A stretch of DNA of 64,000 nucleotides, taken from contig NZ_KB899495.1 of NCBI RefSeq assembly GCF_000378245.1, positions 1 to 64,000 on the forward strand. The letters run 5' to 3'. A program made the translations under genes and the position numbers. Shown piece after piece: positions 12,514 to 45,056 of this stretch (positions are counted from its first letter, which is position 1; the number at the start of each line of letters is the position of its first letter). Under the pieces are notes generated by a model. That model worked only from the letters and a program-made list of their open reading frames with translations. It was not told the origin of the DNA and made no database searches. The stretch comes from Aromatoleum toluclasticum ATCC 700605 (GTDB lineage: Bacteria > Pseudomonadota > Gammaproteobacteria > Burkholderiales > Rhodocyclaceae).

Positions 12514-12524
12514 GGAGGATTCCC

Positions 12525-14555: not shown

Positions 14556-14573
14556 GTCGGCTGTCTCCGCGGG

Positions 14574-14888: not shown

Positions 14889-14905
14889 GATCCATCGCTC
14901 CTGAT

Positions 14906-15241: not shown

Positions 15242-15245
15242 CGCC

Positions 15246-15506: not shown

Positions 15507-15531
15507 TTGTCATCCTCCGGGGGGAGCCGCC

Positions 15532-26855: not shown

Positions 26856-28565
26856 TCAGATCGACCTGATCCGCGCCACGAGGATGGCTGATCGTCCCTC
26901 CGCCAGCGCCCGCATGCAGCGTCCGATGGCGCCGGGAAGGGCGGCGGGGTCATCGACCCATTCACCGTGGGCACCGGCCGCCTCCCCGACCTTTTCGTAG
27001 CGAATACCGTCGGCGATTGCCGCCTGATAATCTCCGCCGGCCCGGGCGGCCCCATCAGGATAGACCCTGAGCGTCGCGCCCTTGACGGCACCCCATCCGC
27101 CGTTGTCGAGCACAATCGTGAAGATCGGCAGGTTCCGCTCCCTGGCGACGATGTAGGCAGGCGTCGGCCCCGAGAAACAGAAACTGGCGTCGCCGGTGAT
27201 ATGGAAAACGGTGCGCTCAGGGTAGGCGAGCTTCGCGCCCAGCGCCGCGCCGGCACCGAATCCCAACCCGCCTCCGCCGTTGCCGAAGAGTGTACCGGGG
27301 CAGTTGCGGCGGATCTGGCCGAGCACGGGCAACACGTTGGTGATCGCCTCGAGAATGACGATATCCTCGTCGTCGATGACCTCGTTCAGCCGCGCGGCCA
27401 CATGCGCCGCAGACATCGGCTCCGAGATGCATTGCGCGTCAGCAGCAGCCTGCGCAGCCTCGGCCTGCCGCCGCTTCGCGAGCTCGGCGAACCGGGCCTG
27501 CGCGGCGCGGTGGTAATCGTCCGAAGCCCTGTCGCGCACCACTTCCAGCAGTCGCCGCAGCACGCGGCAGCTGTCGGCCTGAATCCGAAGGTGGCTCGGG
27601 AAACCCCACATCGGCATGTCCTTCTTGATGACGTCGACGTCGAGGTGCACCCACTGCGTCGCCGGGTTCTCCCGCGCGAACTTCGGAATCCACGGCACAT
27701 CCACATCGACGAGCAGCCCGAAATCGCAGTCGGCAATCGCCGGCGAAGCCGAGTACCCGCCGAAGCACGGCGAGTCGTGCGGAATGTTCAGATAGGTCGG
27801 ATTCGACTCGTACACGCGCATACCCGTCAGCCGCGCCAGTTCGTCGATGACGGGCGGACAGGCCGGATTGCGCCCCGAATAAGAGGTGATCAGCATCGGA
27901 TCTCGGGCGGCGAGCAGCCGATCTGCGATCTCGATCACCGTCGCGTCGTCGACGCCGCCAACGGCCACGGCACCGTAGCGCTCGGCACCGAAGCTGCGGC
28001 CCGCCTCGTTCGGGCAGTCGGCTGCCAGCACTTCGCGTGCGGCGGTGAGGAACACCGGCCCCGGCGGGTCGCTGTGCATCACCGAATGCGCGCGGCGCAC
28101 GACCTCCTTGGCGACTACTCCCGACGGCAGGTCGTAGGCCCATTTCACGTAGGGCCGCACGAGGCTCGCCATGTCGTAGGGGTCCTGCACGAAATTCACG
28201 TAGGTGTCGCGCGTCCCGAGCAGTTCTCCCCGCTGCGAAAACGGAGCCTTGCCCGCGAACAGCAGGACCGGCACGCGCGTACGGAACAAGTTGTGCAGCC
28301 CCATTGCCGCGTTCGCGGCGCCCACATCGACATGCACGAGAACCGCCTGCCCGCGGCCGGTGCACATCGCGTAACCGCCAGCCATATGCACGGCGAGATT
28401 CTCATGCGGACAGAGAATCACCGTCGGCGCTTTACGTCCTGACTCGCGCCAGCGCGCGATCTCTTCAATGAGCGGAACGTGGTCGGTGCCTAGGTTGCAG
28501 AAGAGGTACTCGATCCCCGCCTCCTGAAGCCCTTCGAGAAACCAATGCGCGGTCGTTCTGTTCAT
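26856..28565 (-). CDS. Thiamine-diphosphate-dependent enzyme (acetolactate synthase/benzoylformate decarboxylase superfamily)
   Basis: A 569-residue three-domain ThDP enzyme. The N-terminal Pyr domain has the catalytic glutamate (CPHENLAVHMAGGYA). The C-terminal PP domain has the metal/ThDP motif GDASFCFSG...VLDNGGWGAVKG, where GDA replaces the usual GDG. It could decarboxylate a 2-oxo acid, or make or break an acyloin; the substrate cannot be told. I chose the ATG at 28565 after GGAGGA. It is divergent from a MarR regulator and next to the UbiX-containing operon, so it probably belongs to the same pathway. Confidence 0.8.
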   Translation of the reverse strand: MNRTTAHWFLEGLQEAGIEYLFCNLGTDHVPLIEEIARWRESGRKAPTVILCPHENLAVHMAGGYAMCTGRGQAVLVHVDVGAANAAMGLHNLFRTRVPVLLFAGKAPFSQRGELLGTRDTYVNFVQDPYDMASLVRPYVKWAYDLPSGVVAKEVVRRAHSVMHSDPPGPVFLTAAREVLAADCPNEAGRSFGAERYGAVAVGGVDDATVIEIADRLLAARDPMLITSYSGRNPACPPVIDELARLTGMRVYESNPTYLNIPHDSPCFGGYSASPAIADCDFGLLVDVDVPWIPKFARENPATQWVHLDVDVIKKDMPMWGFPSHLRIQADSCRVLRRLLEVVRDRASDDYHRAAQARFAELAKRRQAEAAQAAADAQCISEPMSAAHVAARLNEVIDDEDIVILEAITNVLPVLGQIRRNCPGTLFGNGGGGLGFGAGAALGAKLAYPERTVFHITGDASFCFSGPTPAYIVARERNLPIFTIVLDNGGWGAVKGATLRVYPDGAARAGGDYQAAIADGIRYEKVGEAAGAHGEWVDDPAALPGAIGRCMRALAEGRSAILVARIRSI

Positions 28566-28675
28566 CGTTTCCTCCGTGCCGGGCATCCCCGGAAGGTTGT
28601 CGTATGGTCAGCTACCGATTCCGTCCGAGCCGCTCAAACGATTGCTGCGAAATAAAGTTGTTTATATTTCAATAT

Positions 28676-28941: not shown

Positions 28942-29484
28942 ATGACCGCCCCCTCCAAACTCGATGATCTCTACTGCCGTCCCGGCTTCCTTTTCAAGCG
29001 CTGCCATCAGGTCGCCGCGGCGATCTTCATCGAGGAGTGCCGCGAGTTCAACGTGACCTCGTCGCAGTTCAGTGCGCTTTACGTCCTTCATACACACCCC
29101 GGCGTCGACCAGATCGCGCTCGGCCGTCTCACCGGCCTCGATCGCTCGACGGTCGGCCTCGTAATCCGGCTGCTCGAAGAGCGTAAGCTTCTCGAGCGAT
29201 GGCCCAATCCGCACGACAAGCGGCGCATGCAGCTGAAACTATCGGCAGCGGGCGAGCGACTCCTCGAGGAGGTCACGCCCGCCGCGGAGCGCGCGCGGCA
29301 AAGAGTCCTGGCGATCCTGCCGCCGTCGCAGCGGGACGAGCTGATGCAACTGCTCGTCAACTTACTCGAACGACATGGCGCCGTAATCGACGCGGAGGCG
29401 ATTCTCGAAGGAAAACACCGGCCGGGCCGATTCGATTTTTCCGAAGCCAAACCCGCGCGGCCCGCCCGGCGCCGCGGCGCCTGA
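28942..29484 (+). CDS. MarR-family regulator
   Basis: A 180-residue MarR protein with winged-helix recognition region (IALGRLTGLDRSTVGLVIRL) and wing (NPHDKRRMQLKLSAAG). It has a ~30-residue basic C-terminal extension. MarR proteins usually repress catabolic genes until a phenolic or CoA-ester ligand binds. It is divergent from the ThDP gene and convergent with ubiX. A palindrome before ubiX, repeated before ubiD, is a good candidate for its operator. Confidence 0.88.
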   Translation: MTAPSKLDDLYCRPGFLFKRCHQVAAAIFIEECREFNVTSSQFSALYVLHTHPGVDQIALGRLTGLDRSTVGLVIRLLEERKLLERWPNPHDKRRMQLKLSAAGERLLEEVTPAAERARQRVLAILPPSQRDELMQLLVNLLERHGAVIDAEAILEGKHRPGRFDFSEAKPARPARRRGA

Positions 29485-29563
29485 GCGGTCGCCGCGCAGC
29501 TGCCCGACCTCAGCCAATGCAACCGTCCGTCCGAGCGGACGCGGTAGGACGGGCTTGCTCCCG

Positions 29564-30166
29564 TCAGACCGCCACCTTCAGCGGCGCCGCGAGCTCGCCC
29601 GACTCCGGTTCCTTCCAGCGGCGGAACAGCCGGTGCGGAATATCGAACTGGTCGAGCGCCTTGCCCACGCTCTGATTGACGATGTCGTCGATGCTCTGTG
29701 GCCGGTTGTAGAACGCCGGCATCGGCGGCAATAGCACTGCACCGTAACGCGTCGCCTGCGCGAGCAGTTCGATGTGGCCGAGGTGCAGCGGCGTCTCGCG
29801 GACAAGCAGTACGAGCCGGCGCCGCTCCTTGAGGCACACGTCGGCCGCGCGCGTCAACAGATTATCGTTGTACGACGCGACGATGCCTGACAGCGTCTTG
29901 ATCGAGCACGGAGCGACGAGCATCCCCATGGTGCGGAACGAGCCGCTCGCGATCGCGGCACCGATGTCGCGGTGCGGATGGACGACGTCGGCGAGCGACT
30001 CGACTTGCTCCACCGTCCAGTCCGTTTCGTCGTGAATGGTGCGTCGGGCCGAAGGCGACATCACGAGGTGAGTCTCTATATCCGGGAATTCCTTCAGTGC
30101 TTCAAGCGCACGAATCCCATAGATTGCGCCGGATGCGCCAGAAATTCCGATGATCAGACGTTTCAT
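29564..30166 (-). CDS. ubiX: UbiX-family flavin prenyltransferase
   Basis: A 200-residue UbiX/Pad1 protein (LIIGISGASGAIYGIRALEAL; SGSFRTMGMLVAPCSIKTLSGI; LVLLVRETPLHLGHIELL; YNRPQSIDDIV). It joins dimethylallyl phosphate to FMN to make the prenylated FMN used by UbiD decarboxylases. It lies at the end of the long minus-strand operon, 58 bp after idi, with a palindromic operator in between. A UbiD gene lies 17 kb away in the same cluster. An accessory copy dedicated to that enzyme is likely. Confidence 0.92.
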   Translation of the reverse strand: MKRLIIGISGASGAIYGIRALEALKEFPDIETHLVMSPSARRTIHDETDWTVEQVESLADVVHPHRDIGAAIASGSFRTMGMLVAPCSIKTLSGIVASYNDNLLTRAADVCLKERRRLVLLVRETPLHLGHIELLAQATRYGAVLLPPMPAFYNRPQSIDDIVNQSVGKALDQFDIPHRLFRRWKEPESGELAAPLKVAV

Positions 30167-30194
30167 CTTGCCACCTCCAGCCCGTTATAATAAG

Positions 30195-30209
30195 TCTCAC
30201 AGTATGAGA
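30195..30209. promoter_or_regulatory. Palindromic operator before ubiX
   Basis: TCTCACAGTATGAGA is an imperfect 15-bp inverted repeat 28 bp before the ubiX start. Its reverse complement matches the site before ubiD (49173-49187) at 14 of 15 positions. MarR is the most likely binder, by proximity. Confidence 0.6.
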
Positions 30210-30223
30210 TTACAAAATCAAAG

Positions 30224-30754
30224 TCAACGTAAAACCCACCCTGTTTCGAAGGATCGCGTGACGTGCTCGAAGCAGTCGCCCAGCCAGTAGGTGTACGCGT
30301 CCGGCCGCGCCTTCAGCTCGGCGCGCAGCCGCGCGAGGTCCATCCATGACCAGCGCGCGACTTCCTCCGGCGCCGGGGTCGGCGAACCGTCGAAACGCCC
30401 GAAATACACATAGTCGTACTCGTGTTCGATGAGCCGGTTCGGCAGCACGGCGCGATAGACGAAGCCGAACTGCTCCTCGAGCGCGCAGTCGATGCCCATC
30501 TCCTCGCGCAGGCGCCGGCGCGCGGCCGCGGCACGCGGCTCGCCGGGGCGCGGGTGGCTGCAGCAGGTGTTGCTCCACAGTCCCGCTGAGTGGTACTTGC
30601 CCGCGGCGCGCTGCTGCAGCAGCAGCCGGCCGGCGGCGTCGAACAAGAACACCGAGATCGCACGATGCAGCCGGCCGTCGACGTGGGCAGCGAGCTTGCC
30701 CGCGGTGCCGATCTCGGCGTCGTGCTCATCGACGAGTATGACCCGATCTTCCAT
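30224..30754 (-). CDS. idi: Isopentenyl-diphosphate delta-isomerase, type I
   Basis: A 176-residue Nudix-fold isomerase that converts IPP to DMAPP. The type I hallmarks are clear: HRAISVFLFD, the catalytic cysteine in SNTCCSHPRPGE, the Nudix-like RRLREEMGI and the glutamate in EHEYDYVYF. I chose the ATG at 30754; the upstream frame overlaps the MFS gene and looks non-coding. Its place directly before ubiX suggests it supplies the prenyl group for prenylated FMN. Confidence 0.92.
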   Translation of the reverse strand: MEDRVILVDEHDAEIGTAGKLAAHVDGRLHRAISVFLFDAAGRLLLQQRAAGKYHSAGLWSNTCCSHPRPGEPRAAAARRRLREEMGIDCALEEQFGFVYRAVLPNRLIEHEYDYVYFGRFDGSPTPAPEEVARWSWMDLARLRAELKARPDAYTYWLGDCFEHVTRSFETGWVLR

Positions 30755-30780
30755 TCTCTTCCCTCCCGGTGCCGTCGCTT

Positions 30781-32427
30781 TCAGCCCGGCCCCTTCGGCA
30801 CATCGGCGCCGACGAAGGCCTTGACGAGCGGCGGGCGCTCGCCCACGTGGAACGCGAGCTTGCGGTTCTCGATCGCGCGCTCGGCGGCGGTCACGCGTTC
30901 GCGATGCCGCAGGTGCGCGAGCCAGTTCTCGTCGATGAACTGCTCGACGTAGCGGCCCGCATGCGCGACGTCGCGGAAGATTGCCCACGACATCGCGCCG
31001 TTTCTCAGCCGCGTGCGCCGGCTCGCCTGCATCAGCTTGAGGAAGTCAACCGCCCGCCCGGGATCGATCAGGTATTCGACCGTCACCATCACCGGGCCCT
31101 GCGCGGGTTCGAGCGGAACCGCGAGCTTGACCGCGCGGCGGTACGGCGACGGCGTCAGGTCGCCGTCGCCGTGCCCGTCAAGTTTCAGCCGCCACGTCGC
31201 CGCGAGGCCGACGAGCGAAGTCACCGCGGCAGTCAACAGGCTCGTCGCCACGCCCGCCTTCGTCGCAAGCTGCCCCCATACCGCGCCGCCAAATGCCATA
31301 CCGACCCACAGCGCCATCAGCACGAGCGCGAGACCGCGGCCGCCGACCCAGCGCGGCAGCGCCATCTGCGCGGCGACCTGGAACGCACTGAACGCAGCCA
31401 TCCAGCCGAAGCCACCGGCGACCATTGCAGCGCCGACGGCATATGCGCTCGACGACAGGCCGACGACGGCGGTCGCGGCGGCGCTCAGCGTCCATGCGCT
31501 CGCAAGCAGTTGGTCGCGCGACACGCGCCGGCGGACGCGGCCGAGCACCAGCGCGAGCACGAGTGCCCCCAAGCCGAAGCACGATACGAGCAGGCTGTAA
31601 GTCGTGGGGCCGGCCTGCAGTTGGTTCTTCGCAACGACCGGCAGCAGTACCAGCGGCGCCCCACCGAAGAACGAGCAAACCGCGCCGCGCGCGAGCACTG
31701 CGAGGAGCGCTGGCGTGTGGAGCGCAAACTGGATGCCGACGCGGATCGCGCCGATGAAGCGCTCGCTCGGCAGGTTGCTCGCCGGGGACGCGTCGCGCCG
31801 CCAGCGGAGCAGAAAATAGACCGCGACAGCCGACAGCAGCGCGTTAAGCAGGAAAACCTGGCCTGCACCGGCCGAGGCGACGATCGCGCCGGCGATGACC
31901 GGCCCTACCGCGCGCGAGCTATTGAGCGCGACGCCATTAAGCACGACGGCGCCGGCGATCTCATCGCGCGGCACAACCTCCTGCATCAGCGACTGGTAGG
32001 TGGGCAGCCGCATCGCGAGACCGCAGCCCATCAGGAACGCGACGAAAAAGAGCCACCTGCCCGTGAGAGCGCCGCTGACCGCGAGCACGCCCGCGAGCAG
32101 CGACGCGGCGGTGACCCAGCACTGCGAGAAGATTAGGTAGCGGCGCCGGTCGATGATATCGGCGAGCGCGCCGCTCGGCAGCGCGAGCAGGAATACCGGC
32201 GCGGTGGCCGCCGTCTGCACGAGTGCCACGAGCAGCGGCGTACTATCGGGCATCGTCGCCATCGTCCAAGCGGCCGCGACCTCGAACATCCAGCTGCAGA
32301 TGTTCGCGGTCAGCGCGGTGATCCACAGCAGCCGGAACACAGGGCGGCGCAACGGCGCCCAAGGGTCGATGACGGTGGCGGACGCGGGCGGCCCGGCGTC
32401 CGCGACAGGCGACGTGTCGCGCTTCAT
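30781..32427 (-). CDS. MFS transporter with C-terminal monooxygenase-like (ABM) domain
   Basis: A 548-residue protein. The first ~420 residues form a 12-helix major-facilitator domain of the EntS/MFS_3 type (LWITALTANICSWMFEVAAAW; LPSGALADIIDRRR). The last ~110 residues are soluble (VMVTVEYLIDPGRAVDFLKLM...DVAHAGRYVEQFIDENWLAHLRH) and resemble the antibiotic-biosynthesis-monooxygenase dimeric fold. The role may be export or uptake of a pathway compound. It lies 26 bp before idi in the operon. The ATG at 32427 was chosen over one ten codons upstream. Confidence 0.8.
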   Translation of the reverse strand: MKRDTSPVADAGPPASATVIDPWAPLRRPVFRLLWITALTANICSWMFEVAAAWTMATMPDSTPLLVALVQTAATAPVFLLALPSGALADIIDRRRYLIFSQCWVTAASLLAGVLAVSGALTGRWLFFVAFLMGCGLAMRLPTYQSLMQEVVPRDEIAGAVVLNGVALNSSRAVGPVIAGAIVASAGAGQVFLLNALLSAVAVYFLLRWRRDASPASNLPSERFIGAIRVGIQFALHTPALLAVLARGAVCSFFGGAPLVLLPVVAKNQLQAGPTTYSLLVSCFGLGALVLALVLGRVRRRVSRDQLLASAWTLSAAATAVVGLSSSAYAVGAAMVAGGFGWMAAFSAFQVAAQMALPRWVGGRGLALVLMALWVGMAFGGAVWGQLATKAGVATSLLTAAVTSLVGLAATWRLKLDGHGDGDLTPSPYRRAVKLAVPLEPAQGPVMVTVEYLIDPGRAVDFLKLMQASRRTRLRNGAMSWAIFRDVAHAGRYVEQFIDENWLAHLRHRERVTAAERAIENRKLAFHVGERPPLVKAFVGADVPKGPG

Positions 32428-32548
32428 CCGTGTCTCCGTGGAAGTGGCGAGCCGCACGCGAGCCGGCCCGTGCGGGCCGCGGCCCGCACGCGCATCCGTC
32501 CGCCTTTCGCCACTGTGGCCGCCGTCGCCACGCTCTGCCCCTCGGTGC

Positions 32549-32941
32549 TCACGCCGGCCGGAACATCGGCACCGGCGGGCCGCCTTCGGTGGGGACGAAC
32601 ACGACCGACACCGACTGCCCGATGGCGAGCGCCGCTGGATCGCAGTCGATCAGGTTCGTCAGCATCGTCACGCCTTCATCGAGCGTCACATACGCGAGGG
32701 TATAGGCGGATTCGGCTTTGCCCATCGTGCTGTACGAATAGATCGTGCCGCGGCCTGAGGCGGTAAGCCACTCGGTACGCCCGCTCAGGCAGTGCGGGCA
32801 GATCGCCCGCGGGTAGTAATGCACTTCGCCGCAGTCGCCGCATTTCTTTAACAGCAGCTGCCCTTCGCCGGCCGCCAGCCAGAACGGCTCGGTCTCCGGA
32901 TGCGGGCGCGGGGCAATAATCTTTCTGTTGACCGTGGTCAT
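32549..32941 (-). CDS. DUF35 zinc-ribbon/OB-fold protein, partner of the thiolase-like protein
   Basis: A 130-residue protein with zinc-ribbon cysteines (CGDC...CPHC) and an OB fold (GTIYSYSTM...LAYVTLDEG). DUF35 proteins bind acyl-CoA and act as obligate partners of thiolase-like enzymes, for example ChsH2 with the aldolase Ltp2 in steroid side-chain breakdown. It starts 5 bp after the thiolase gene, so the two are translationally linked. Confidence 0.88.
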   Translation of the reverse strand: MTTVNRKIIAPRPHPETEPFWLAAGEGQLLLKKCGDCGEVHYYPRAICPHCLSGRTEWLTASGRGTIYSYSTMGKAESAYTLAYVTLDEGVTMLTNLIDCDPAALAIGQSVSVVFVPTEGGPPVPMFRPA

Positions 32942-32946
32942 GCTGC

Positions 32947-34110
32947 TCACTCCCTTCCGAGGATCACGGTGCCGGCGACATGGCGCGACGCGAGCGCGCC
33001 GCCAATGCCGCTGGCGATCGCGAGATCGCAGTTGCGGACCTGTACCTTCTCGTGCGCCTCGCCACGCAGCTGGCGCACCGCTTCGATGATCTTCGTCATG
33101 CCGCCGCGATTGGCCGGGTGGTTGTTGCACAACCCGCCGCCGTCGGTGTTGAACGGCAGCCGGCCGATGCCGGCGATCAGATTGCCGTCGGCGACGAAGC
33201 GGCCGCCCTCGCCTTTCCTGCAGAAGCCGAGGTCCTCAAGCTGCACGAGCACGGTGATCGTGAAGCTGTCGTAGAGCGATGCGTAGCGGATGTCCGTCGG
33301 CGCGACGCCCGCTTCGGCGAACGCGGCGGGTCCCGACCACGCGGCGGCTGAGAACGTCAGGTCGACCTTGCCCGCGGCGGCGTTCTTGGGCGCCTCGCCC
33401 GCGCCGAGCACGGCGACGAGCGGGCGGTTCAGGCTCTTCGCGATTTCGGGGCGCGCGACGATCACCGCGCCGCCGCCGTCGCTGACGACGCAGCAGTCGA
33501 GCCGGTGCAACGGGTCGGCGACCATCGGCGAATTGACGACCTCCTCGACGGTGACCACCTGGCGCAGCATCGCGTTCGGGTTGTGCTGCGCATGGTGCGA
33601 CGCGGCGACCTTGATCCACGCGAGCTGCTCGCTCGTCGTGCCGAACTCGTGCATGTGACGGCGCGCGACCATCGCATAGAGGTTCTGCGTCGCCGGGGCG
33701 AACGGCAGCTCGAACTGGACGTCCGGCGTGTCCGGGTCGGGCGGGCGCAGCGCGAGCGACGCCGCGGCGGCGCGCGGCCGCCCGGCGAGCGTCACGAGCG
33801 CGACGTTGCACTTGCCCGCCGCGATCGCCTGCGCCGCATGCGCGACGTGCAGGATCGGCGCCGAGCCGCCCGACTCGGTCGAATCCATGTGGCGCACCTT
33901 CAGGCCCATGTACTCCACCATCGACGCGGTGCCGAGCCCCGGCGCGTCGCCGGCGCAGAAGTAGCCATCGATATCGGCCTTCGTGAGACCCGCGTCGTCG
34001 AGCGCGCCCTTCGCGACGTCGGCGTGCAGGCGCGCCACCGACAGCGTGTCGGCCTTGCGCGTCGGATGCTCGTAGGCACCGACGATGTAAGCCTTGCGTT
34101 TGATGCTCAT
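32947..34110 (-). CDS. Thiolase-superfamily protein lacking the catalytic cysteine (putative retro-aldolase)
   Basis: A 387-residue SCP2/thiolase-type protein. Where thiolases have the nucleophilic Cys (CASGGSA pattern), this one has Thr78 (TESGGSA), so normal thiolysis is not expected. The C-terminal CNNHPANRGG replaces the canonical GHPxGATG. Such proteins paired with DUF35 include the Ltp2-type aldolases, which cleave beta-hydroxyacyl-CoA to a carbonyl compound and a shorter acyl-CoA. The substrate is unknown. It is embedded in a beta-oxidation-like operon. Confidence 0.82.
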   Translation of the reverse strand: MSIKRKAYIVGAYEHPTRKADTLSVARLHADVAKGALDDAGLTKADIDGYFCAGDAPGLGTASMVEYMGLKVRHMDSTESGGSAPILHVAHAAQAIAAGKCNVALVTLAGRPRAAAASLALRPPDPDTPDVQFELPFAPATQNLYAMVARRHMHEFGTTSEQLAWIKVAASHHAQHNPNAMLRQVVTVEEVVNSPMVADPLHRLDCCVVSDGGGAVIVARPEIAKSLNRPLVAVLGAGEAPKNAAAGKVDLTFSAAAWSGPAAFAEAGVAPTDIRYASLYDSFTITVLVQLEDLGFCRKGEGGRFVADGNLIAGIGRLPFNTDGGGLCNNHPANRGGMTKIIEAVRQLRGEAHEKVQVRNCDLAIASGIGGALASRHVAGTVILGRE

Positions 34111-34143: not shown

Positions 34144-35004
34144 TCAGCCGGCGAGCACCGCGCGGCCGTTGTCGAGCACGGTCGCGTCGCGCTCCTGCAC
34201 GCGCGCGCGGAAGGACACGACGTTGCCGCGCTTCCAGAACGCGAACGTGACCGTCTCACCGGGAAAGGTGGGCGCCGAGAAGCGCACGTCAAGCTCGCGC
34301 AGCGCCGCCGCGTCGTAGTCGCAGAAACGCCGCAGGATCGCGTGCGCCGCGATGCCGTAGGTGCACATGCCGTGCAGGATCGGCCGCGGAAACTTCGCGC
34401 CGCGCGCGGCTTCCGGGTCGGCGTGGATCGGGTTGCGGTCGCCGTTGAGGCGGTAGAGCAGCGCCGCCTGGGGCGACGTCGGCATCTCGAGCACCGCGTC
34501 GGGCTCACCCTCGGGGATCGGGTGCACGGGGCGAACCGGTCCCGACGAGCCGCCGAAGCCGCCGTCGGCGCGCGCGAACACCGTGCCCTTGACGGTCGCG
34601 TAATGCGTGCCGTCGGCGGCGTCGGTGATCTCGCGCTCGAGATACAGCAGCGCGCCCTTGTCGTGACCCTTGTCGATGACCTCCGCGACGCGCGTGACCC
34701 CGCGAACGCGGCCCGCGGGGGGCAGCGGCCGATGCACGACGAGGCCCTGCTCGCCGTGCAGCATCATGCGGTAGTTCAGCCCCGCGCGCGGATCGACCGC
34801 CCAGCCCTGCGGCAGGCACAGCACGACCGGCATCGTCGGGAAGGCCGCGAGATCCTTTTCGTAGACGTAGCGCAGCTGGCCTGCGTCAAGCGGGTCGGCG
34901 CCGAGTCCAAGGCTCAACGCGTAGAACATCGTCTCGCGGTCGGTGTAGGACTCCTCGACCGGATCCATCTTCCAGCCGAGTAGAAAATCTCTGTCGATGG
35001 GCAT
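34144..35004 (-). CDS. MaoC-type (R)-specific enoyl-CoA hydratase
   Basis: A 286-residue double-hotdog protein of the hydratase-2 type. The active-site element NGDRNPIHADPEAARGAKFPRP contains the Asp/His pair, followed by ILHGMCTYG. It hydrates a trans-2-enoyl-CoA to an (R)-3-hydroxyacyl-CoA. I chose the ATG at 35004, where an acceptable ribosome site (GGAGGAAA) lies; the long upstream frame is antisense to the SDR gene. It sits between the thiolase-like gene and the SDR gene. Confidence 0.88.
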   Translation of the reverse strand: MPIDRDFLLGWKMDPVEESYTDRETMFYALSLGLGADPLDAGQLRYVYEKDLAAFPTMPVVLCLPQGWAVDPRAGLNYRMMLHGEQGLVVHRPLPPAGRVRGVTRVAEVIDKGHDKGALLYLEREITDAADGTHYATVKGTVFARADGGFGGSSGPVRPVHPIPEGEPDAVLEMPTSPQAALLYRLNGDRNPIHADPEAARGAKFPRPILHGMCTYGIAAHAILRRFCDYDAAALRELDVRFSAPTFPGETVTFAFWKRGNVVSFRARVQERDATVLDNGRAVLAG

Positions 35005-35018
35005 GTCGTTTCCTCCGC

Positions 35019-35933
35019 TCAGAGCGAGTCCCAGGCGGCGAAGTACTCGCCGCCGTCGAGCGGCGTCAGGAACGGGCGCATCGCGGGGATCGCGTTCTCG
35101 GCGATCGTCTGCAGCGACCAGCCGTCGCCGTAGGTCACCGAGCGGATCGGGCGCATCTGGTTGAACAGCATGATCTCGTTGCGGCGCACGCCGAAGATCT
35201 GGCCGGTGACATCCTTTGCGGCGTCGGAGATCAGGTAGGCCGCGAGCGGCGCGATCTTCTCGGGCGTGTTGAGCTTCGCGCGCTCGAGCCGCGCGGCCTG
35301 CTCCGGGGTCTTCGGCTCGATGCCCGCGAGCATGCGGGTGAAGGCCTGCGGGGAGATGCAGTTCGAGCGCACACCGAAGGCCTTCATGTCGAGAGCGATG
35401 CCTTTCGACAGGCCGATGATGCCGGCCTTGGCTGCGCCGTAGTTCGCCTGCCCCATCATGCCGACGACGCCGGTCGGCGACGTCATATGCACGAACGCGC
35501 CCGAGCCCTGCTCCTTGAAGAACGGCGCGGCGGCAACGGCGACGTAGAACGCGCCGCTCAGGTTCGTGTCGAGCACGAGCTTCCAGTCCTCGACGCCGAG
35601 CTTGTGGAACATCTTGTCGCGCAGCACCCCGGCATTGTTGACAACCGCGTCGATGCGGCCGAACCGCTCGACCGCGGTCTTGACGATGCGCTGCGCGCCG
35701 TCCGGGTCGGCGACGCTGTCGAGGCTTGGCGCTGCGACCCCGCCCGCCGCCTCGATTTCGGCGCAAACCTCCTTCGCCGGGCCTTCGCTGCGTCCGTCGC
35801 CCGACAGCGACGTACCGATGTCGTTGACGACGACCTTCGCGCCGAGCTGCGCGCAGTACATCGCGATCGCGCGGCCGATGCCGTTGCCCGCACCGGTGAC
35901 GACGACCACCTTGTCCTTCAAGCCATATTCCAT
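35019..35933 (-). CDS. Short-chain dehydrogenase of the 3-hydroxyacyl-CoA (HSD17B4/MFE-2) type
   Basis: A 304-residue SDR with the NAD motif GAGNGIGRA, the NNAG element, active-site Ser (MTSPTG) and YGAAK. The VVNDIGTSLSGDGRSEGPA stretch is typical of peroxisomal MFE-2-like dehydrogenases, which act with MaoC hydratases on (R)-3-hydroxyacyl-CoA. Together with the neighbouring MaoC gene it would do the hydration and oxidation steps. The ATG at 35933 fits the family start. Confidence 0.88.
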   Translation of the reverse strand: MEYGLKDKVVVVTGAGNGIGRAIAMYCAQLGAKVVVNDIGTSLSGDGRSEGPAKEVCAEIEAAGGVAAPSLDSVADPDGAQRIVKTAVERFGRIDAVVNNAGVLRDKMFHKLGVEDWKLVLDTNLSGAFYVAVAAAPFFKEQGSGAFVHMTSPTGVVGMMGQANYGAAKAGIIGLSKGIALDMKAFGVRSNCISPQAFTRMLAGIEPKTPEQAARLERAKLNTPEKIAPLAAYLISDAAKDVTGQIFGVRRNEIMLFNQMRPIRSVTYGDGWSLQTIAENAIPAMRPFLTPLDGGEYFAAWDSL

Positions 35934-35977
35934 TCCTGTATCCCCCGTTGGATGTGTGATGAATCGTGATGAATGGG

Positions 35978-37111
35978 TCAGGCGAGCGCTTCCTGGCCGA
36001 AACGGCGCAGGTGATGCCGCACGTCGCCGAACGACTGACCGATGACCAGCAGGCGCTTGGCGTAATGGCCGACCTTGCATTCGTCGGTCATACCCATCGC
36101 GCCGTGCATCTGGATCGCCTCGCGCGTGACCAGCCGCGCCGCGTTGCCGACCTGCACCTTCGCCGCCGAGACGAGCCGCGCGCGCTCGGCGGCGTCGCCG
36201 CCGTCGACCGCCATCGCCGCGACCCCGGCCATCGCGCGCGCCTGCTCGCACGCGATCAACATATCGACGAGACGGTGCTGCAGCGCCTGGAAGCTCGCGA
36301 GCGCGACACCGAACTGCTTGCGCACCTTCACGTAGTCGACGGTGAGTTCGAGCAGCGCGTCGAGCGCACCGACCGCTTCCGCGCACAGCGCGGCGATGCC
36401 GCGGTCGAGCGCCGCCTCGACGAGCGCGAGCCCTCCGCCGGCCTCGCCGAGCACGCGGTCGGCCGGCACGCGCACGTCCGTGAAGCGGAAATCCGCGGCG
36501 CGGCGCCCGTCGAGCGTCGGATAGGCGTGCAGGTCGACGCCGCGCGCTGTCGCGTCAACGAGGAAGAGCGTCACGCCGTCGCGATCTCCGGGCGCACCCG
36601 AAGTGCGCGCCGCGACGATCAGCGTGTCGGCGGCGTCGCCGTCGAACACCAGCGTCTTGCGCCCGTCGAGCCGGTAGCCGTCGCCGTCGCGCATCGCCTT
36701 CGCCGCGAGCGGCAGCGGGTCGTAGCGCGCACCGGGCTCGTCGAGCGCGATCGCGAGGCGTCGCTCGCCGCGCACGACGGCTGGTAGCAGCGCGTCGGCC
36801 TGCGCCGGCGTGCCCGCGGCGGCGACGAGGCCGCCGGCGAGCACGACCGTCGAGCAGTACGGCTCGCACGCGAGCGCGCGGCCGAGGCCTTCCATGACGA
36901 TCATGACGTCGACCGCCGACAGCTCGCTGCCTCCGTGCCCGGCCGAGAACGGCAGCCCGAGCAGGCCCATGTCGGCCATCAGCCGCCAGCGCTCGTCCAT
37001 GCGTGCCGGGGCGTCCGGGACGCCGCGCGAGGCGGCCGGGTATTCGTGTTCGCAGAACCGCTGCACCGCATCGCGCAACTGCAGCTGCTCGTCGGAAAGG
37101 GAAAAGTCCAT
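35978..37111 (-). CDS. Acyl-CoA dehydrogenase, small (beta-type) subunit
   Basis: A 377-residue acyl-CoA dehydrogenase-fold protein (MDFSLSDEQLQLRDAVQRFCEHEYP; YVKVRKQFGVALASFQALQHRL; QMHGAMGMTDECKVGHY). It pairs with the next gene upstream as in the heteromeric dehydrogenases PimD/PimC or the actinobacterial FadE pairs. FAD is bound between subunits and only one carries the catalytic base. The electron acceptor is presumably ETF. Confidence 0.88.
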   Translation of the reverse strand: MDFSLSDEQLQLRDAVQRFCEHEYPAASRGVPDAPARMDERWRLMADMGLLGLPFSAGHGGSELSAVDVMIVMEGLGRALACEPYCSTVVLAGGLVAAAGTPAQADALLPAVVRGERRLAIALDEPGARYDPLPLAAKAMRDGDGYRLDGRKTLVFDGDAADTLIVAARTSGAPGDRDGVTLFLVDATARGVDLHAYPTLDGRRAADFRFTDVRVPADRVLGEAGGGLALVEAALDRGIAALCAEAVGALDALLELTVDYVKVRKQFGVALASFQALQHRLVDMLIACEQARAMAGVAAMAVDGGDAAERARLVSAAKVQVGNAARLVTREAIQMHGAMGMTDECKVGHYAKRLLVIGQSFGDVRHHLRRFGQEALA

Positions 37112-37120: not shown

Positions 37121-38314
37121 CTAGAGGCCGAGCAGCGCGCGCGCGGCGAGGTTGCGCTGGATTTCGTTCGCACCGCCGTAGATCGACAGCTTTCGCGAAT
37201 CGAGGAAGTTGGCCGCGAGCGCCGCGAGCTCGGGCTCGACCGGCGCCTCATCGGCGCGCTCGAGGAACAGCGCCTCCTCGACGAAGGGCACCGCCGCGGG
37301 GCCGGCAGCCTCGAGCAGCAGCTCGTAGATCGCCTGCCGCAGCTCGGTGCCGCGGATCTTCAGCAGCGACGCATCGACGCCGGGCGCCGCAGCGATCTGC
37401 GCACCGCTCAGCATGCGCAGCCCCATGTATTCGAGCGCCAGCAGCTCGACCTCGAGCGCGGCGATGCGCTCGCGCCAGCCCGGCGATTCGATCAGCGGAC
37501 GGCCGCCATCGCGCACCGTCGCGGCGATGCGCTTCAATCGCGCGAGCTGCTGCTTCGACGCGCCAACTCCGGCGATGCCGGTGCGCTCGTGCCCGAGCAG
37601 GTACTTCGCGTAAGTCCAGCCCTTGTTCACTTCGCCGATCAGGTTTTCGGCGGGGACGCGCACGTTGTCGAGATAGACCTCGTTGAGATCGTCGCCGCCG
37701 TCGATGCCGCGGATCGGCCGCACCGTGATGCCCGGCGTCTTCAGGTCGATCAGCAGGAACGAGATGCTCTCCTGCGGTTTGCCACTGCCGGTGCGCACGA
37801 GGCAGAACAGCCAGTCGCAGAAGTGCGCGTACGACGTCCAGATCTTGTGGCCATTGACGACGAAGTCGTCGCCCTCGCGCACCGCGCTCGTGCGCATCGA
37901 CGCGAGGTCAGACCCCGCGCCGGGCTCCGAAAAGCCCTGCGCCCACCATACCTCGCTCCTGCGGATCGGCGGCAGGTGGCGCCGCTTCTGCTCCTCGGAG
38001 CCGAACGCTATCAGCACCGGCCCGAGCATGTTGATACCGCTCGCGATGATGCGCGGCGCATTGCCGAGCAGCGTCTCCTCGTCGAAGATGTAGCGCTCGA
38101 CCGGCGTCCAACCCGGTCCACCGTGCTCGACCGGCCACGACGGCGTGATCCAGCCGCGCTCGTAGAGCTTCGCGTACCACGCGACATAGTCGTGCCGCTC
38201 GAGCCGTAGGCCGCGTTCGACCTTCCGGCGGACGTCCTCGGGCAGGCGCTCGCGCACGAAGGCGCGCACCTCCTGCCGGAAGCCTTCCTCTTGCTCGGAA
38301 AACTGGAGTTTCAT
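37121..38314 (-). CDS. Acyl-CoA dehydrogenase, large (alpha-type) subunit
   Basis: A 397-residue partner of the preceding protein, similar in size and sequence style to PimC (pimeloyl-CoA dehydrogenase large subunit). It shows WWAQGFSEPGAGSDLASM for FAD/substrate binding, VNGHKIWTSYAHFCDW, and a C-terminal LSIYGGANEIQRNLAARALLGL with the FAD-binding end. It starts ~50 bp after the acyl-CoA synthetase gene and 9 bp before the small subunit. A cyclic, dicarboxylic or branched acyl-CoA is a plausible substrate class. Confidence 0.9.
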   Translation of the reverse strand: MKLQFSEQEEGFRQEVRAFVRERLPEDVRRKVERGLRLERHDYVAWYAKLYERGWITPSWPVEHGGPGWTPVERYIFDEETLLGNAPRIIASGINMLGPVLIAFGSEEQKRRHLPPIRRSEVWWAQGFSEPGAGSDLASMRTSAVREGDDFVVNGHKIWTSYAHFCDWLFCLVRTGSGKPQESISFLLIDLKTPGITVRPIRGIDGGDDLNEVYLDNVRVPAENLIGEVNKGWTYAKYLLGHERTGIAGVGASKQQLARLKRIAATVRDGGRPLIESPGWRERIAALEVELLALEYMGLRMLSGAQIAAAPGVDASLLKIRGTELRQAIYELLLEAAGPAAVPFVEEALFLERADEAPVEPELAALAANFLDSRKLSIYGGANEIQRNLAARALLGL

Positions 38315-38361: not shown

Positions 38362-40485
38362 TCACAGCGGGTCGCACACGACGAGCGCGTCGAGTGCGAC
38401 GACGCGGTCCGGGTACGCGACCAGCGGATTGATGTCGATCTCGGTGACGGCCGGCGTCGTGCGCATCAGCGCGCCGACCCGCGCGACGACGCGCGCGACC
38501 TGCGCCATGTCGACCGCCGGCGCACCGCGCAGCCCCCACAGCAGCGCCGCGCCCTTGAGCCGGCAGAGCTCCTCGACGATCGCAGCCTCGTCGAGATCGA
38601 CCGGCAGCAGCCGCACGTCGGCAAGCGCCTCGATCCAGATGCCGCCGAGCCCGACGAGCAGCACCGGGCCCCAATCGGGATCGCGGCGCGCGCCGACGAC
38701 GAGCTCGAGCCCCTTGTCGGCCATCGTCTCGACGAGCATGCCGTCAAGCGCGAGACCGGGCCGTGCGCGAGCGACGCTGTCGACGACGCGCGCCCACGCA
38801 GCACGCAGCGCCGCCTCGTCGGCGAGTCCGACCGCGACGCCGCCCGCGTCGCTCTTGTGCGGCAACGCGGCCGCCTGCGCCTTGAGCACGACCGGGTAGC
38901 CGATGTCGGCGGCGATGCGCACGGCCTCGTCGGCGTCGCGCGCGAGCCGCCCGCACGGGATCTCTATGCCCGCCGCGGCGAGCCACTGCTTGCCGCGGTA
39001 TTCGGCGAGCGTGCCGCCGCCCCACGGCAGCGCGACGGTCTCGCCGAGCGCTGCACACCCGGCCCCGGGCTTTTGCAGGCGTGCGACGGCATAGCGCGCG
39101 ACGTGCGCCATCGCGCGCAGCGCGCGGTCCTGCGAGCGGAAGAGCGGCACGCCCGCGTCGCGCACCGCGTCGAGCAGCTCCGGCTCGAGCGGCGACTGGT
39201 CGCCAACGATGACGAGCACGACCGGCTTCGCCGCGCTGGCGAGCGCGGGCACGAGGTGGTTCGCGCGGTCGATCTGCGACACGCGCGCGCCGCCCACCTG
39301 CGACACGACGAGACTGCCGACGCCAGGATCGTCGAGCAAGCGGCGCGCGATCTCGCCCGGAACGGCCGGGCGGCCGACATGCACCGTCGTGACGTCGAGC
39401 GGGTTCTCGATCGCCGCATAGGCTGGCAGCGACTCGCGCAGAGCCTCGGCAGTCGCGGGCGCGAGCGCCGCGAATTCCAGTCCGACGTCCTCGCCGAGAT
39501 CGAGCGCGGTGTTCTTCAGCGCGCCCGACATCGTCATGAACGCCGCCCCGCCGGGGCATGGCGCCGGATAGCGCGACAGTACGGCTGCGGTGTCGACGAG
39601 CTCGTCGAGCGTGTCGACGAGCACGACCGCATGCCGTGCGAGCATCGTGCGCATCATCGCGAAGTCGCCGGCGAGCGCGCCGGTGTGCGACTGCGCGGCG
39701 TCGCGCGCGCGTTGACTCCGCCCCGTCGACAGCAGCACCAGGGGCTTGCCGAGCCCGCGTGCCCGCGCCGCGAGCGAGAGGAACTCGCGCGGCCGGCGGA
39801 TCTGCTCCAGGTACAGCGCGATCGCGTTCGTCGCGCCGTCGGTCAGGAGGTATTCGACGAAATCCTCGGCGCCGAGCACCGCCTCGTTTCCGGTCGAGAT
39901 CGAATGGCTGACCGGCTCGCCGCGCGCGAGCAGCGCGTCGCGGATCGTCGCGGCCATCGCGCCGCTTTGCGCTACGATCGCGACGCCCGCGCCCGTGGGC
40001 GCGCCGCAGCGCTCGAGCGGCTCGAAGGTGAGCGGCACTCCATCGACGTAGTTCGTGAGGCCCATGCAGTTAGGGCCGACGAGCGCGACGCCGCCGGCGA
40101 GCGCGGCCGCGGTCAGCGCGTCCTGCTGCGCCTTGCCCTCGTCGCCCGTTTCGGCGAACCCCGACGAGAAGATCACCGCCGCGTTCACGTTGCGCCGGCC
40201 GCACTCGGCGACGGCGTCGAGCACGCCGTTCTGCGGGATTGCGATCACCGCGACATCGACACCCCGCGGCAGGTCGGCGACGCGCTGGAAACACGCGCGA
40301 GCGCCGATCTCGCGCCGGTCGCGATTCACGAGGTGGATCTCGCCTCCGAAGCCGAAGCGCTCCAGATTCGCCAGCACGAAGCCGCCGAACGAGCGCGGCT
40401 CGGACGACGCGCCGACGATGGCGATCGAGCGCGGGCGCAGCAGACGCGCGACCACCGCAGCGCTATGCAGATTGCTTGTTGTCAT
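38362..40485 (-). CDS. NDP-forming acyl-CoA synthetase (acetyl-CoA synthetase/Pat-like family)
   Basis: A 707-residue protein. It has a CoA-binding Rossmann domain (SIAIVGASSEPRSFGGFVLANL), two succinyl-CoA-synthetase-like domains with the phospho-histidine segment QSHTGALAGD, and a C-terminal ATP-grasp domain (GYPVVLKAQAAALPHKSDAGGV; EIDINPLVAY). It makes an acyl-CoA from acid, CoA and NTP by way of a phospho-enzyme, or runs in reverse to gain ATP. First gene of the long minus-strand operon ending in ubiX. The ATG at 40485 is preferred over an upstream one lying in the operator region. Confidence 0.88.
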   Translation of the reverse strand: MTTSNLHSAAVVARLLRPRSIAIVGASSEPRSFGGFVLANLERFGFGGEIHLVNRDRREIGARACFQRVADLPRGVDVAVIAIPQNGVLDAVAECGRRNVNAAVIFSSGFAETGDEGKAQQDALTAAALAGGVALVGPNCMGLTNYVDGVPLTFEPLERCGAPTGAGVAIVAQSGAMAATIRDALLARGEPVSHSISTGNEAVLGAEDFVEYLLTDGATNAIALYLEQIRRPREFLSLAARARGLGKPLVLLSTGRSQRARDAAQSHTGALAGDFAMMRTMLARHAVVLVDTLDELVDTAAVLSRYPAPCPGGAAFMTMSGALKNTALDLGEDVGLEFAALAPATAEALRESLPAYAAIENPLDVTTVHVGRPAVPGEIARRLLDDPGVGSLVVSQVGGARVSQIDRANHLVPALASAAKPVVLVIVGDQSPLEPELLDAVRDAGVPLFRSQDRALRAMAHVARYAVARLQKPGAGCAALGETVALPWGGGTLAEYRGKQWLAAAGIEIPCGRLARDADEAVRIAADIGYPVVLKAQAAALPHKSDAGGVAVGLADEAALRAAWARVVDSVARARPGLALDGMLVETMADKGLELVVGARRDPDWGPVLLVGLGGIWIEALADVRLLPVDLDEAAIVEELCRLKGAALLWGLRGAPAVDMAQVARVVARVGALMRTTPAVTEIDINPLVAYPDRVVALDALVVCDPL

Positions 40486-40610
40486 TTCCCTAGTCACCGA
40501 AAGCCTCTCGAAACCGACTCGCGTCCTACGTCCGGCGGCCGTCCTGGGCGCCACCACCACGGCAAGCTGCAGTCGCAGCGACGCCGTTTTCATTATTCTG
40601 CAACAGCATT

Positions 40611-40637
40611 GTGGTATACACAAGATAATTTATTGTG
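40611..40637. promoter_or_regulatory. Operator region of the divergent gntR/acyl-CoA synthetase promoters
   Basis: GTGGTATACACA (40611-40622) runs into the palindrome CACAAGATAATTTATTGTG (40619-40637). The GTATACAC core recurs before the ABC ATPase gene (47248-47260) and before the second gntR (63115-63125). A second AT-rich promoter-like stretch (TTGGTATAATTAGTAC) lies at 40690-40705. Confidence 0.55.
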
Positions 40638-40731: not shown

Positions 40732-41433
40732 ATGAGCCAGATCCGTAACCAGAAACCAAATCTCGCTTCGTCGATCCGCGACACGCTGCAGTCCGAGATC
40801 GAAAGCGGGAAGGTTCCGCCGGGCGCGTCGCTCGACGAGCGCGAGCTCGCCGCACGCTTCTCCGTGTCCCGCACGCCGGTGCGCGAAGCGCTGCAACAGC
40901 TTGCCGCGCAGAAGCTCGTGCGCATCACGCCGCGGCAGGGTGTCGCGGTCTCCCGCCTGTCGATCCCGCAGCTGCGGGACATGCTGGAACTGCTCGGCGA
41001 ACTCGAAGCCTTGTGCGCGAAACTCGCCGCGCGGCGTGCGTCGGAGGAGCTGCGTGCCGCTCTCGACGCGGCGCTCGCACACGGCCGGGCGATCGCTGGC
41101 GGCGCCGGCGACGCGGACGATTACAGCGACGCGAATCTGGAATTCCACGAGGCGATCTACGCCGGCAGCCGCAACGAGCTCCTCGCGCAGCAGGTGCGCC
41201 CGCTGCGGCGCCTGATCCAACGCTACAATGTCAACAACCGGCAACTGCATACCACCGTTCAGATCGAACGTTCGGTGGCCGCGCACGAAAAGATCGCACA
41301 GGCGATCCTCGCCGGCGACGAAGCGCTCGCTTACCGGCTGATGCTCGAACACGTGCCGGCCGGCGGCAGCGGCTTCTCGGAGTTCCTGTCGGCGCTGCCG
41401 GCGAGCCTGCTAGAGGAGACCGCCGCGGCCTGA
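40732..41433 (+). CDS. GntR-family regulator (FCD type), copy 1
   Basis: A 233-residue regulator with N-terminal winged helix (LDERELAARFSVSRTPVREALQQLAAQKLVR) and an FCD effector domain (NLEFHEAIYAGSRNELLAQQ with metal-binding His/Asp positions). It is clearly paralogous to the GntR at 63138, including the ending GFSEFLSALPASLLEE. It is divergent from the acyl-CoA synthetase operon and probably controls it by way of the GTATACAC-type site. Confidence 0.92.
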   Translation: MSQIRNQKPNLASSIRDTLQSEIESGKVPPGASLDERELAARFSVSRTPVREALQQLAAQKLVRITPRQGVAVSRLSIPQLRDMLELLGELEALCAKLAARRASEELRAALDAALAHGRAIAGGAGDADDYSDANLEFHEAIYAGSRNELLAQQVRPLRRLIQRYNVNNRQLHTTVQIERSVAAHEKIAQAILAGDEALAYRLMLEHVPAGGSGFSEFLSALPASLLEETAAA

Positions 41434-43073: not shown

Positions 43074-43134
43074 GGTCTCCCCCTATGGTTTTGCAGTCCG
43101 TCATCGCGGACATCGACTTGCATGGCATCCGCCG

Positions 43135-44049
43135 TCAGTGGCGGAACTTCGGGTCGAGCGTGTCGCGCAGCGCGTCGCCCAGCAGGCTGAACGCGAACAC
43201 TGTGAGGCTGATCGCGAGGCCCGGAAAGATCACCGTCCAGGGCGCCTGCGAGAACGACTGCACCGCGACGCCCGACAGCATCAAGCCCCACGACGGCGTC
43301 GGATCGGTGACGCCGACGCCGAGGTAGGACAGCGCCGCCTCGAGCAGGATGGTCTGTGCGGTGAAGGCCGAGACCAGCACGAGCCACGGCGCAGCGAGGT
43401 TCGGCGCCATGTGGCCGAGTACGATGCGCGGGTGCGAGAAGCCCGCGGCGCGCGCCGCGTCGATGTAGGGCATCGTGCGCACCGTAAGCGCAGCCGCGCG
43501 GATCACGCGCGCGGCCTTCGGCATGTAGGGAATCGCCACCGCGAACATCAGGTTCGCGTCGATGCCGTAGATCTCGTGGCGGCCGAGCACCGCGGCGACG
43601 ATCAGCGCTAGGATGATCACCGGCAGCGACAGCAAGATGTCGACGAAGCGCTGCAGCACGGTATCGACCCAGCCGCCGAAGTATGCCGACGTCACTCCGA
43701 GCAGGCCCCCGGCGATGCCGCCCAGCAGCGACGAGCAGATGCCGAGGATCAGCGCGGTGCGCGCACCATAGACGAGCCGCGAGAAGATATCGCGCCCGAA
43801 CTCGTCGGTGCCGGCCCAGTGCGTGGCGTCGGGCGGCAGCAGCAGCTTCGCGAAGTCCGTCGCGAGCGGATCGTACGGCGCAACCCACACGGCGAACACG
43901 CCCGCGAACAGGATCACCAGGATGATCAGCGCGCTCGCGAGCCCCAACGGCTGCTCGCGAGCGAACCGCCCGATTCCCTTCAGCCACCTCAGCCCGCGTC
44001 GCCCTGCCGGGCGCGCCGCGCGCTCGAAAGGCACAGCCATCGCTTCCAT
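43135..44049 (-). CDS. ABC transporter permease, DppC type
   Basis: A 304-residue inner-membrane permease with about six helices. It has the DppC-type N-terminal segment (VAPYDPLATDF) and the EAA-like loop (YIDAARAAGFSHPRIVLGHMAPN) that contacts the ATPase. It lies 41 bp after dppB-like and ~60 bp before the binding-protein gene. The start at 44049 follows GGAGAG; the longer frame would overlap the neighbouring gene. Confidence 0.93.
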   Translation of the reverse strand: MEAMAVPFERAARPAGRRGLRWLKGIGRFAREQPLGLASALIILVILFAGVFAVWVAPYDPLATDFAKLLLPPDATHWAGTDEFGRDIFSRLVYGARTALILGICSSLLGGIAGGLLGVTSAYFGGWVDTVLQRFVDILLSLPVIILALIVAAVLGRHEIYGIDANLMFAVAIPYMPKAARVIRAAALTVRTMPYIDAARAAGFSHPRIVLGHMAPNLAAPWLVLVSAFTAQTILLEAALSYLGVGVTDPTPSWGLMLSGVAVQSFSQAPWTVIFPGLAISLTVFAFSLLGDALRDTLDPKFRH

Positions 44050-44089
44050 GTCGATCTCTCCGTTGATTGTGTCCGTCGGGTTCCCGCGT

Positions 44090-45043: not shown

Positions 45044-45056
45044 GGATCATCTCCCG

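Follow-up and report, generated by a model that had tools for sequence, protein, structure and literature searches.

In the 64,000 nucleotides of Aromatoleum toluclasticum ATCC 700605 analysed here (the window; contig NZ_KB899495.1, positions 1 to 64,000), a gene for an isopentenyl-diphosphate isomerase (idi) lies next to ubiX, the gene for a flavin prenyltransferase, in a region which also encodes a UbiD-family decarboxylase. This raises the question whether Idi provides the prenyl donor from which UbiX makes prenylated FMN (prFMN) for UbiD. The genes of this region are:

26856..28586, minus strand: thiamine-diphosphate-dependent enzyme (NF006203)
28942..29484, plus strand: MarR-family regulator, candidate for the ubiX/ubiD sites (family scan; EbN1 ortholog)
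29564..30166, minus strand: ubiX, flavin prenyltransferase, 200 aa, with Gln at the PaUbiX-181 position (family models, alignment)
30224..30754, minus strand: idi, type I isopentenyl-diphosphate Delta-isomerase, 176 aa (family models, solved-chain match, residues)
30781..32457, minus strand: MFS_3 transporter, 26 nt before idi (domain scan)
32549..32944, minus strand: OB-fold/zinc-ribbon (ChsH2-type) protein (domain scan)
32947..34110, minus strand: thiolase-domain protein (NF006010)
34144..35010, minus strand: MaoC-type hydratase (family scan)
35019..35936, minus strand: short-chain dehydrogenase (SDR) (family scan)
35978..37111, minus strand: acyl-CoA dehydrogenase (domain scan)
37121..38314, minus strand: second acyl-CoA dehydrogenase (family check; EbN1 ortholog, 85%)
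38362..40623, minus strand: acyl-CoA synthetase of the acetate--CoA ligase (NDP-forming) type, start uncertain (below equivalog cut-offs)
40732..41433, plus strand: GntR/FCD regulator (family check; EbN1 ortholog, 78%)
41490..47180, minus strand: oligopeptide-type ABC transporter genes for a binding protein, two permeases and a fused ATPase (scan, synteny)
47505..49097, minus strand: UbiD-family decarboxylase, 530 aa (Pfam, TIGR00148, solved chains)

The gene caller was GC3-based and gave over-extended starts and some false open reading frames. Where neither a family scan nor a BLAST match nor a public annotation was available, genes were named by eye.

Translation of idi (30224-30754, minus strand) gave a reading of 176 codons without internal stop. 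Its product scored 169.1 bits against NF002995 (cut-off 127) and 120.6 bits against TIGR02150 (cut-off 105.8), both curated family models matched over nearly the full length, and solved isomerase chains such as 1i9a, which we take to be the E. coli enzyme, match it with an E value of 4e-24. Residues C65, H67, H24, H30, E85, E110, E112, Y100 and W157 are invariant in 9/9 aligned sequences and presumably represent the catalytic residues important in E. coli Idi. The domain has the Nudix fold (PF00293). The consensus of the Nudix box is GX5EX7REUXEEXGU; as judged by eye, the stretch GEPRAAAARRRLREEMGI of Idi lacks the first two box glutamates, as does 1i9a. On this ground, assignment of Idi as a hydrolase rather than an isomerase was rejected; isomerase activity is predicted. 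The dN/dS ratio of idi and its EbN1 ortholog is approximately 0.19 (0.221/1.162, dS near saturation), and the window idi looks to have been kept by selection. All dN/dS ratios given here are NG86 values and are rough, because dS exceeds 1 in 4/6 pairs.

UbiX matched the curated family models NF004685 with 273.5 bits (cut-off 188) and TIGR00421 with 233.3 bits (cut-off 108.9) as well as the solved chains 1sbz and PAD1. Both genes are on the minus strand, 57 nt separate idi from the downstream ubiX, and a purine-rich stretch precedes the ATG in each. Thus, the original prediction of an idi gene placed directly before ubiX was confirmed by a complete type I idi, a short gap, a common strand and family models above cut-off.

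The window UbiD carries all three UbiD Pfam domains (PF20695, PF01977 and PF20696) and scored 291.8 bits against TIGR00148 (cut-off 244.85). Among the 40 solved chains listed, 7pda and a phenolic acid decarboxylase were the top matches, with 7pda as the best, and the phthaloyl-CoA decarboxylases 8pmk and 8oz5 were the weakest with 78 and 77 bits, compared with 1175 and 1158 bits over the full length for the UbiD protein of the EbN1 plasmid. Membership of the window UbiD in the phthaloyl-CoA decarboxylase subfamily was rejected on these scores; the phthaloyl-CoA decarboxylase gene of the same genome is located on contig C13. Six UbiD matches contain one internal stop (G022:C63:26088-27572 and five others; one TAG, five TGA), and some of these may be alignments overrunning the end of the gene.

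Two SBP_bac_5 binding proteins of one family and with similar starts are encoded at 41490-43073 (minus strand) and 52773-54359 (plus strand); their genes flank those for UbiD and for a molybdopterin oxidoreductase (50093-52699, plus strand). Adjoining the idi/ubiX region, a minus-strand set at 859-15532 includes several ferredoxin-type parts (named by eye) and, at 3371-4924, a diiron monooxygenase alpha subunit with Phenol_Hydrox and YHS domains.

Predicted promoters and operators before ubiX and UbiD

Pattern searches pointed to putative promoters with the same kind of operator before ubiX and UbiD:

30195..30227, minus strand: predicted ubiX promoter TTGACT-17-TACTGT, with the palindrome TCTCATACTGTGAGA over the -10 region (pattern search)
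49173..49205, minus strand: predicted UbiD promoter TTGACA-17-CAATAT, with the same kind of operator, TCTCACAATATGAGA (pattern search)

The predicted ubiX promoter is localized in the idi-ubiX gap, and its first bases overlap the 3' end of idi. The palindrome TCTCATACTGTGAGA has a single other match in the window, before UbiD; allowing up to three mismatches, the two sites account for 4 matches over both strands of the window, where 0.51 are expected. In EbN1, ubiX and UbiD are preceded by the same promoter/palindrome arrangement, despite a much longer idi-ubiX gap. Perfect matches to TTGACW-N12-TCTCRNANTNTGAGA are limited to two in the whole A. toluclasticum genome and two in EbN1, and all four sites precede ubiX or UbiD. 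The pattern is absent from five other genomes, and the reversed control gave no match. The sole match with two mismatches in the A. toluclasticum genome overlaps the UbiD site on the opposite strand. As the pattern was derived from the four sites, it fits them by construction, and the absence of others is the result. We conclude that ubiX and UbiD very probably form one two-site regulon, in which the pattern would work as promoter and operator. The MarR-family protein encoded at 28942-29484, which has an ortholog with 76% identity at the same place in EbN1, is a candidate regulator of both predicted sites. With the two-site pattern, the way in which cofactor and enzyme are regulated together becomes accessible to study.

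In a scan of 29400-31000 for consensus promoters, one site was found (0.2 expected), again in the idi-ubiX gap. Its hexamers, TTGTAA-17-TATTAT, differ from the preferred ones, and the exact start of ubiX transcription is uncertain.

Before idi, the operator pattern was not found by the pattern search in either the A. toluclasticum genome or EbN1, and idi may be read together with the genes before it. According to the original prediction, idi and ubiX are neighbours inside a catabolic operon, with a UbiD gene in the cluster. The catabolic region does hold a UbiD gene. A single operon of all three is in doubt because ubiX has its own predicted promoter and the UbiD gene lies 17 kb away, with the plus-strand GntR gene in between; with pattern sites only before ubiX and UbiD, it was not supported.

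Distribution of the idi-ubiX pair

The TIGR02150 model was used to search for idi in 61 genomes, A. toluclasticum and 60 relatives. Idi genes are present in 7/61 genomes at 10 places, one of which is on a contig repeating another, leaving 9 distinct places; ubiX scored above cut-off in 54/61 genomes. At 8/9 distinct places, in 7/61 genomes, a ubiX match lies 121-1491 bp away on the same contig. The ninth is the second idi of A. toluclasticum; contig C28 ends 297 bp away from it, and its neighbour is an IclR-family gene, which is also the case in the phthalate cluster of EbN1. No idi was found in 11/17 Aromatoleum genomes examined, so the organism needs no idi for ordinary isoprenoids, and idi as a gene of the general isoprenoid pathway was rejected.

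For a background, the Idi model matched 67/398 Pseudomonadota genomes. The A. toluclasticum genome and 19 genomes with a best match of E 1e-11 or weaker, taken as other Nudix proteins, were dropped, and 47 were carried on, 29 of them with ubiX above cut-off. Idi lies within 100 kb of ubiX on one contig in 0/47, the nearest pair being 117 kb apart (G713), as compared by eye on contigs among which split pairs would escape. Order-wide, idi was found in 3/399 genomes, and in the two besides A. toluclasticum ubiX is on a different contig. In G173, idi adjoins dxs. These neighbourhood counts, 8/9 near ubiX versus 0/47 in the background, argue against a chance pairing.

To extend the sample, a species-level genome collection was scanned with nine Idi sequences, and the best 80 of 585 confirmed loci were kept. 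At 5/80 of these, ubiX lies within the examined stretch: A. evansii and A. buckelii, already counted above, and Xanthobacteraceae, Janthinobacterium and Rhodoferax MAGs. Flanks of 5 kb or more on either side of idi are available for 45/80 loci, so that part of the 75 negative loci were judged from short stretches. In the three MAGs the same Idi clade is paired with ubiX and UbiD in clusters that differ in content and order. A pair confined to this genome had been named as the finding that would speak against the original prediction; instead, ubiX is within 1.5 kb at nearly all distinct places, and three taxa outside the family share the pair.

Phthalate-type clusters consist of an IclR gene, idi, ubiX, UbiD and CoA transferases (some genes named by eye, here and in the following two clusters). 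The Janthinobacterium cluster comprises a PPDK_N protein, UbiD, UPF0261, ubiX, an AMP-binding ligase nearest to aromatic acid-CoA ligases, below cut-off, and idi. The Rhodoferax cluster contains two UbiD genes, an ABC transporter, ubiX, an MFS-like gene, idi, a ligase-like gene and a PNPOx-like gene. Gene order and orientation vary among the cluster types, and idi stays near ubiX. In a tree of 92 Idi rows, the 14 linked proteins fall on one side of a branch with support 97/51; when the Rhodoferax Idi was left out, the support for the remaining 13 was 100/98. In this tree the second Idi of A. toluclasticum (L026) is labelled ubiX-linked though its contig ends before any ubiX, two row pairs are identical (L019/L034 and L022/L035), and the bootstrap had not settled. 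Since the linked Idi proteins form one clade, the idi-ubiX places are not independent events; the tree suggests that the link probably has a single origin and was retained afterwards, and it may have spread with mobile clusters such as that on EbN1 plasmid 2.

In several phthalate-type clusters, idi/ubiX are joined by genes for a chorismate synthase paralog and a PNPOx-like protein (L019:6912-8558 (-), L024:10300-11908 (+), L027:8600-10414 (-) and L034:10540-12081 (+); chorismate synthase scanned in L024 only). Chorismate synthase is FMN-dependent. PNPOx-like genes without a chorismate synthase gene occur in the Rhodoferax MAG cluster (L043:12317-12793 (+)) and in a phthalate-type cluster without idi (L169:4369-4836 (-)). 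By analogy, these PNPOx-like proteins could possibly be flavin reductases or prFMN maturases like PhdC. At one locus (L036), idi is intact, while aroC and the PNPOx-like gene that follow it survive as remnants only. On plasmid pD of Ensifer adhaerens (L031), a different Idi adjoins isopentenyl transferase and cytochrome P450 genes, and this idi sits with isoprenoid or cytokinin-like genes.

A phthaloyl-CoA decarboxylase gene (at least 79% identical) is present in 8/61 relatives, and idi is found in 7/8 genomes with this gene versus 0/53 without it (Fisher test, 1.8e-8, relatedness being ignored). Order-wide, 3/4 genomes with phthaloyl-CoA decarboxylase (G046, G351 and G390) are without idi. 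With both samples pooled, idi is present in 7/10 such genomes and missing in 3/10; hence it is not obligatory for them. On the EbN1 chromosome, the gene order of the window cluster is conserved; identities are 92% for UbiD, 84% for UbiX and 68% for Idi. The phthalate cluster on EbN1 plasmid 2 (NC_006824) holds the same idi clade, in a plasmid and transposase context. In G022, a UbiD of the window type (G022:C10:844-2403) is 90% identical to that of the window; no ubiX or idi was found near it among the genes called on 14 kb, and the single ubiX of this genome above cut-off is the idi-linked one on C83.

Prenyl donor of UbiX and the role of Idi

In cells with the MEP pathway, IPP and DMAPP arise side by side, IPP being the more abundant product. 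Some UbiX proteins use DMAPP and others DMAP (excerpt of PMC6541611). Position 181 is Phe in PaUbiX (DMAP), Gln in AnUbiX (DMAPP) and His in O157 UbiX (both) and is described in the same excerpt as not the sole determinant of the donor (PMC6541611). Every idi-linked UbiX that was aligned has Gln or His at this position, the window UbiX Gln. The UbiX of contig C2, taken for the housekeeping copy of the A. toluclasticum genome, has Phe, as the DMAP-specific PaUbiX. Phenol-type UbiX proteins, which are encoded without idi, also have Gln, so the residue is a property of the catabolic subfamily. Judged from this one active-site residue, the window UbiX should be able to accept DMAPP.

Taken together, we consider it likely that Idi is an accessory protein of prFMN synthesis, which would raise DMAPP for UbiX and hence prFMN for UbiD. 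Idi would convert IPP to DMAPP beside a DMAPP-accepting UbiX, UbiX would join the prenyl group to reduced FMN, and the resulting prFMN would serve the UbiD decarboxylase of the same catabolic cluster. In this scheme DMAPP would be limiting for prFMN, and idi would be carried where a catabolic pathway demands much UbiD holoenzyme. Phthaloyl-CoA decays fast, and high levels of its decarboxylase are thought to circumvent this decay (excerpt of PMC13040137). Such levels would raise the demand for prFMN; this rationale applies to phthalate and may extend to the window cluster. The functional link of Idi to UbiX and UbiD that had been predicted is the best reading of the locus and agrees with the conserved proximity of the genes, whereas the separate predicted ubiX promoter and the lack of idi in some genomes with a closely related UbiD speak against it.

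That all linked Idi proteins form one clade, that EbN1 carries one of them on a plasmid in a transposase context and that some genomes with the same kind of UbiD are without idi would also be expected if idi had joined an ancestral phthalate-type cluster by chance and had since been carried by mobile elements, without a role for prFMN. We regard this as unlikely, because idi is intact, four idi pairs gave dN/dS ratios of approximately 0.09-0.28 (NG86; three of these pairs have dS above 1), and idi has stayed near ubiX in phthalate-type, window-type and two other cluster types while order and orientation changed. Moreover, at L036 it remained intact where aroC and the PNPOx-like gene did not. 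The beta-oxidation-like gene set of the window might instead suggest that Idi handles an isoprenoid substrate of this cluster or supplies other isoprenoids, such as quinone or membrane lipids. This is improbable, since what the cluster types examined have in common is ubiX and UbiD, no further isoprenoid gene was seen among the genes scanned in them, and phthalate is not an isoprenoid; other idi genes sit elsewhere, for example by dxs in G173 or by the isopentenyl transferase gene in Ensifer.

As a Nudix-fold protein, Idi could also have been repurposed as a hydrolase that forms DMAP, which some UbiX proteins use as monophosphate donor, from DMAPP. Nudix enzymes with this reaction are tied to prFMN in E. 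coli (excerpt of PMC12359138), and a true Nudix hydrolase gene follows ubiX in phenol-type clusters (see below). Nevertheless, the curated isomerase models are matched above cut-off, the presumed catalytic residues of Idi are invariant (9/9), other residues stand in place of the Nudix box glutamates, just as they do in 1i9a, and the linked UbiX proteins have Q or H where the DMAP-specific PaUbiX has F, which makes such a conversion highly improbable.

If Idi acts as an accessory to prFMN synthesis, its association with ubiX would imply that the cells themselves handle the prenyl donor as a bottleneck, and Idi would offer a simple lever for making UbiD holoenzyme. This bears on a practical point, as active UbiD can be hard to obtain and the genes around ubiX/ubiD are diverse, many of them without an assigned function (excerpt of PMC10865409).

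Precursor supply in other UbiD clusters and known systems

A further ubiX of A. toluclasticum, at 378 kb on contig C5, lies behind the genes for the alpha and beta subunits of phenylphosphate carboxylase. It is followed by a gene of the CTP-dependent riboflavin kinase type (PF01982, E 3e-30) and then by a Nudix hydrolase gene:

C5, ~378.1-379.8 kb (L028:10071-11830): phenol-type ubiX, kinase-type and Nudix genes, in the A. toluclasticum genome

The Nudix box of this hydrolase (L028) is intact, as judged by eye. The order ubiX-kinase-Nudix is present in 13/13 genus stretches examined (L028 and L172-L183), and none of these 13 phenol-type stretches contains idi. Outside the genus, one of three stretches has the kinase only, one the Nudix gene only and one neither. 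The two genes fit the precursors of prFMN, namely FMN and DMAP formed from DMAPP, and hint at a broader supply of precursors.

On this basis we tentatively propose, as a possibility that goes beyond the window, that catabolic UbiD clusters carry dedicated precursor-supply genes for their cofactor. The Idi clade would provide the prenyl donor in phthalate-type and window-type clusters, riboflavin kinase and Nudix hydrolase would provide FMN and prenyl phosphate in phenol-type clusters, and the PNPOx-like protein, probably flavin-binding, would serve prFMN reduction or maturation. If true, the supply of prFMN rather than the UbiD gene would limit such pathways. The riboflavin kinase-type and Nudix genes of phenol clusters make the precursor-supply idea directly testable.

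A literature search gave no description of idi beside ubiX in the titles and abstract starts among the matches listed, and the word isopentenyl is absent from the main text of a phthalate review (PMC13040137), of a paper on phthalate degraders (PMC8269228) and of PMC13040415. In the NCBI record of EbN1 plasmid 2 the gene is already annotated as idi, and therefore the adjacency to ubiX is visible to any reader.

Among known systems, the window Idi agrees with the type I Idi family (TIGR02150/NF002995) in length, conserved residues and the predicted reaction from IPP to DMAPP; it differs in being partnered by the ubiX and UbiD of a catabolic cluster, in a genus where 11/17 genomes examined are without it. 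With the anaerobic phthalate clusters that encode a phthaloyl-CoA decarboxylase (PMC13040137), the window has UbiD plus UbiX in common, and that of EbN1 plasmid 2 has the same idi clade, whereas the window pair belongs to another, beta-oxidation-like cluster, whose UbiD is not of this kind. In vitro, DMAPP is converted to DMAP by E. coli NudJ (excerpt of PMC12359138); NudJ with its kin and Idi are both of the Nudix fold and both act on the prenyl-donor side of prFMN synthesis. However, NudJ hydrolyses DMAPP, while Idi is predicted to form it. To our knowledge, NudJ is a general enzyme which is not encoded in a catabolic cluster. A parallel is offered by the operons for LpdD, a prFMNH2 chaperone (excerpt of PMC10865409), and PhdC, a prFMN maturase (excerpt of PMC13040415), both accessory proteins of UbiD clusters. 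In these, too, ubiX and ubiD are accompanied by a small additional gene, which presumably helps to form active UbiD. LpdD and PhdC act on prFMN after UbiX, whereas the place of Idi would be ahead of UbiX, at the level of donor supply, and idi would thus join the chaperone and maturase genes as a third kind of accessory gene for prFMN, on the precursor side.
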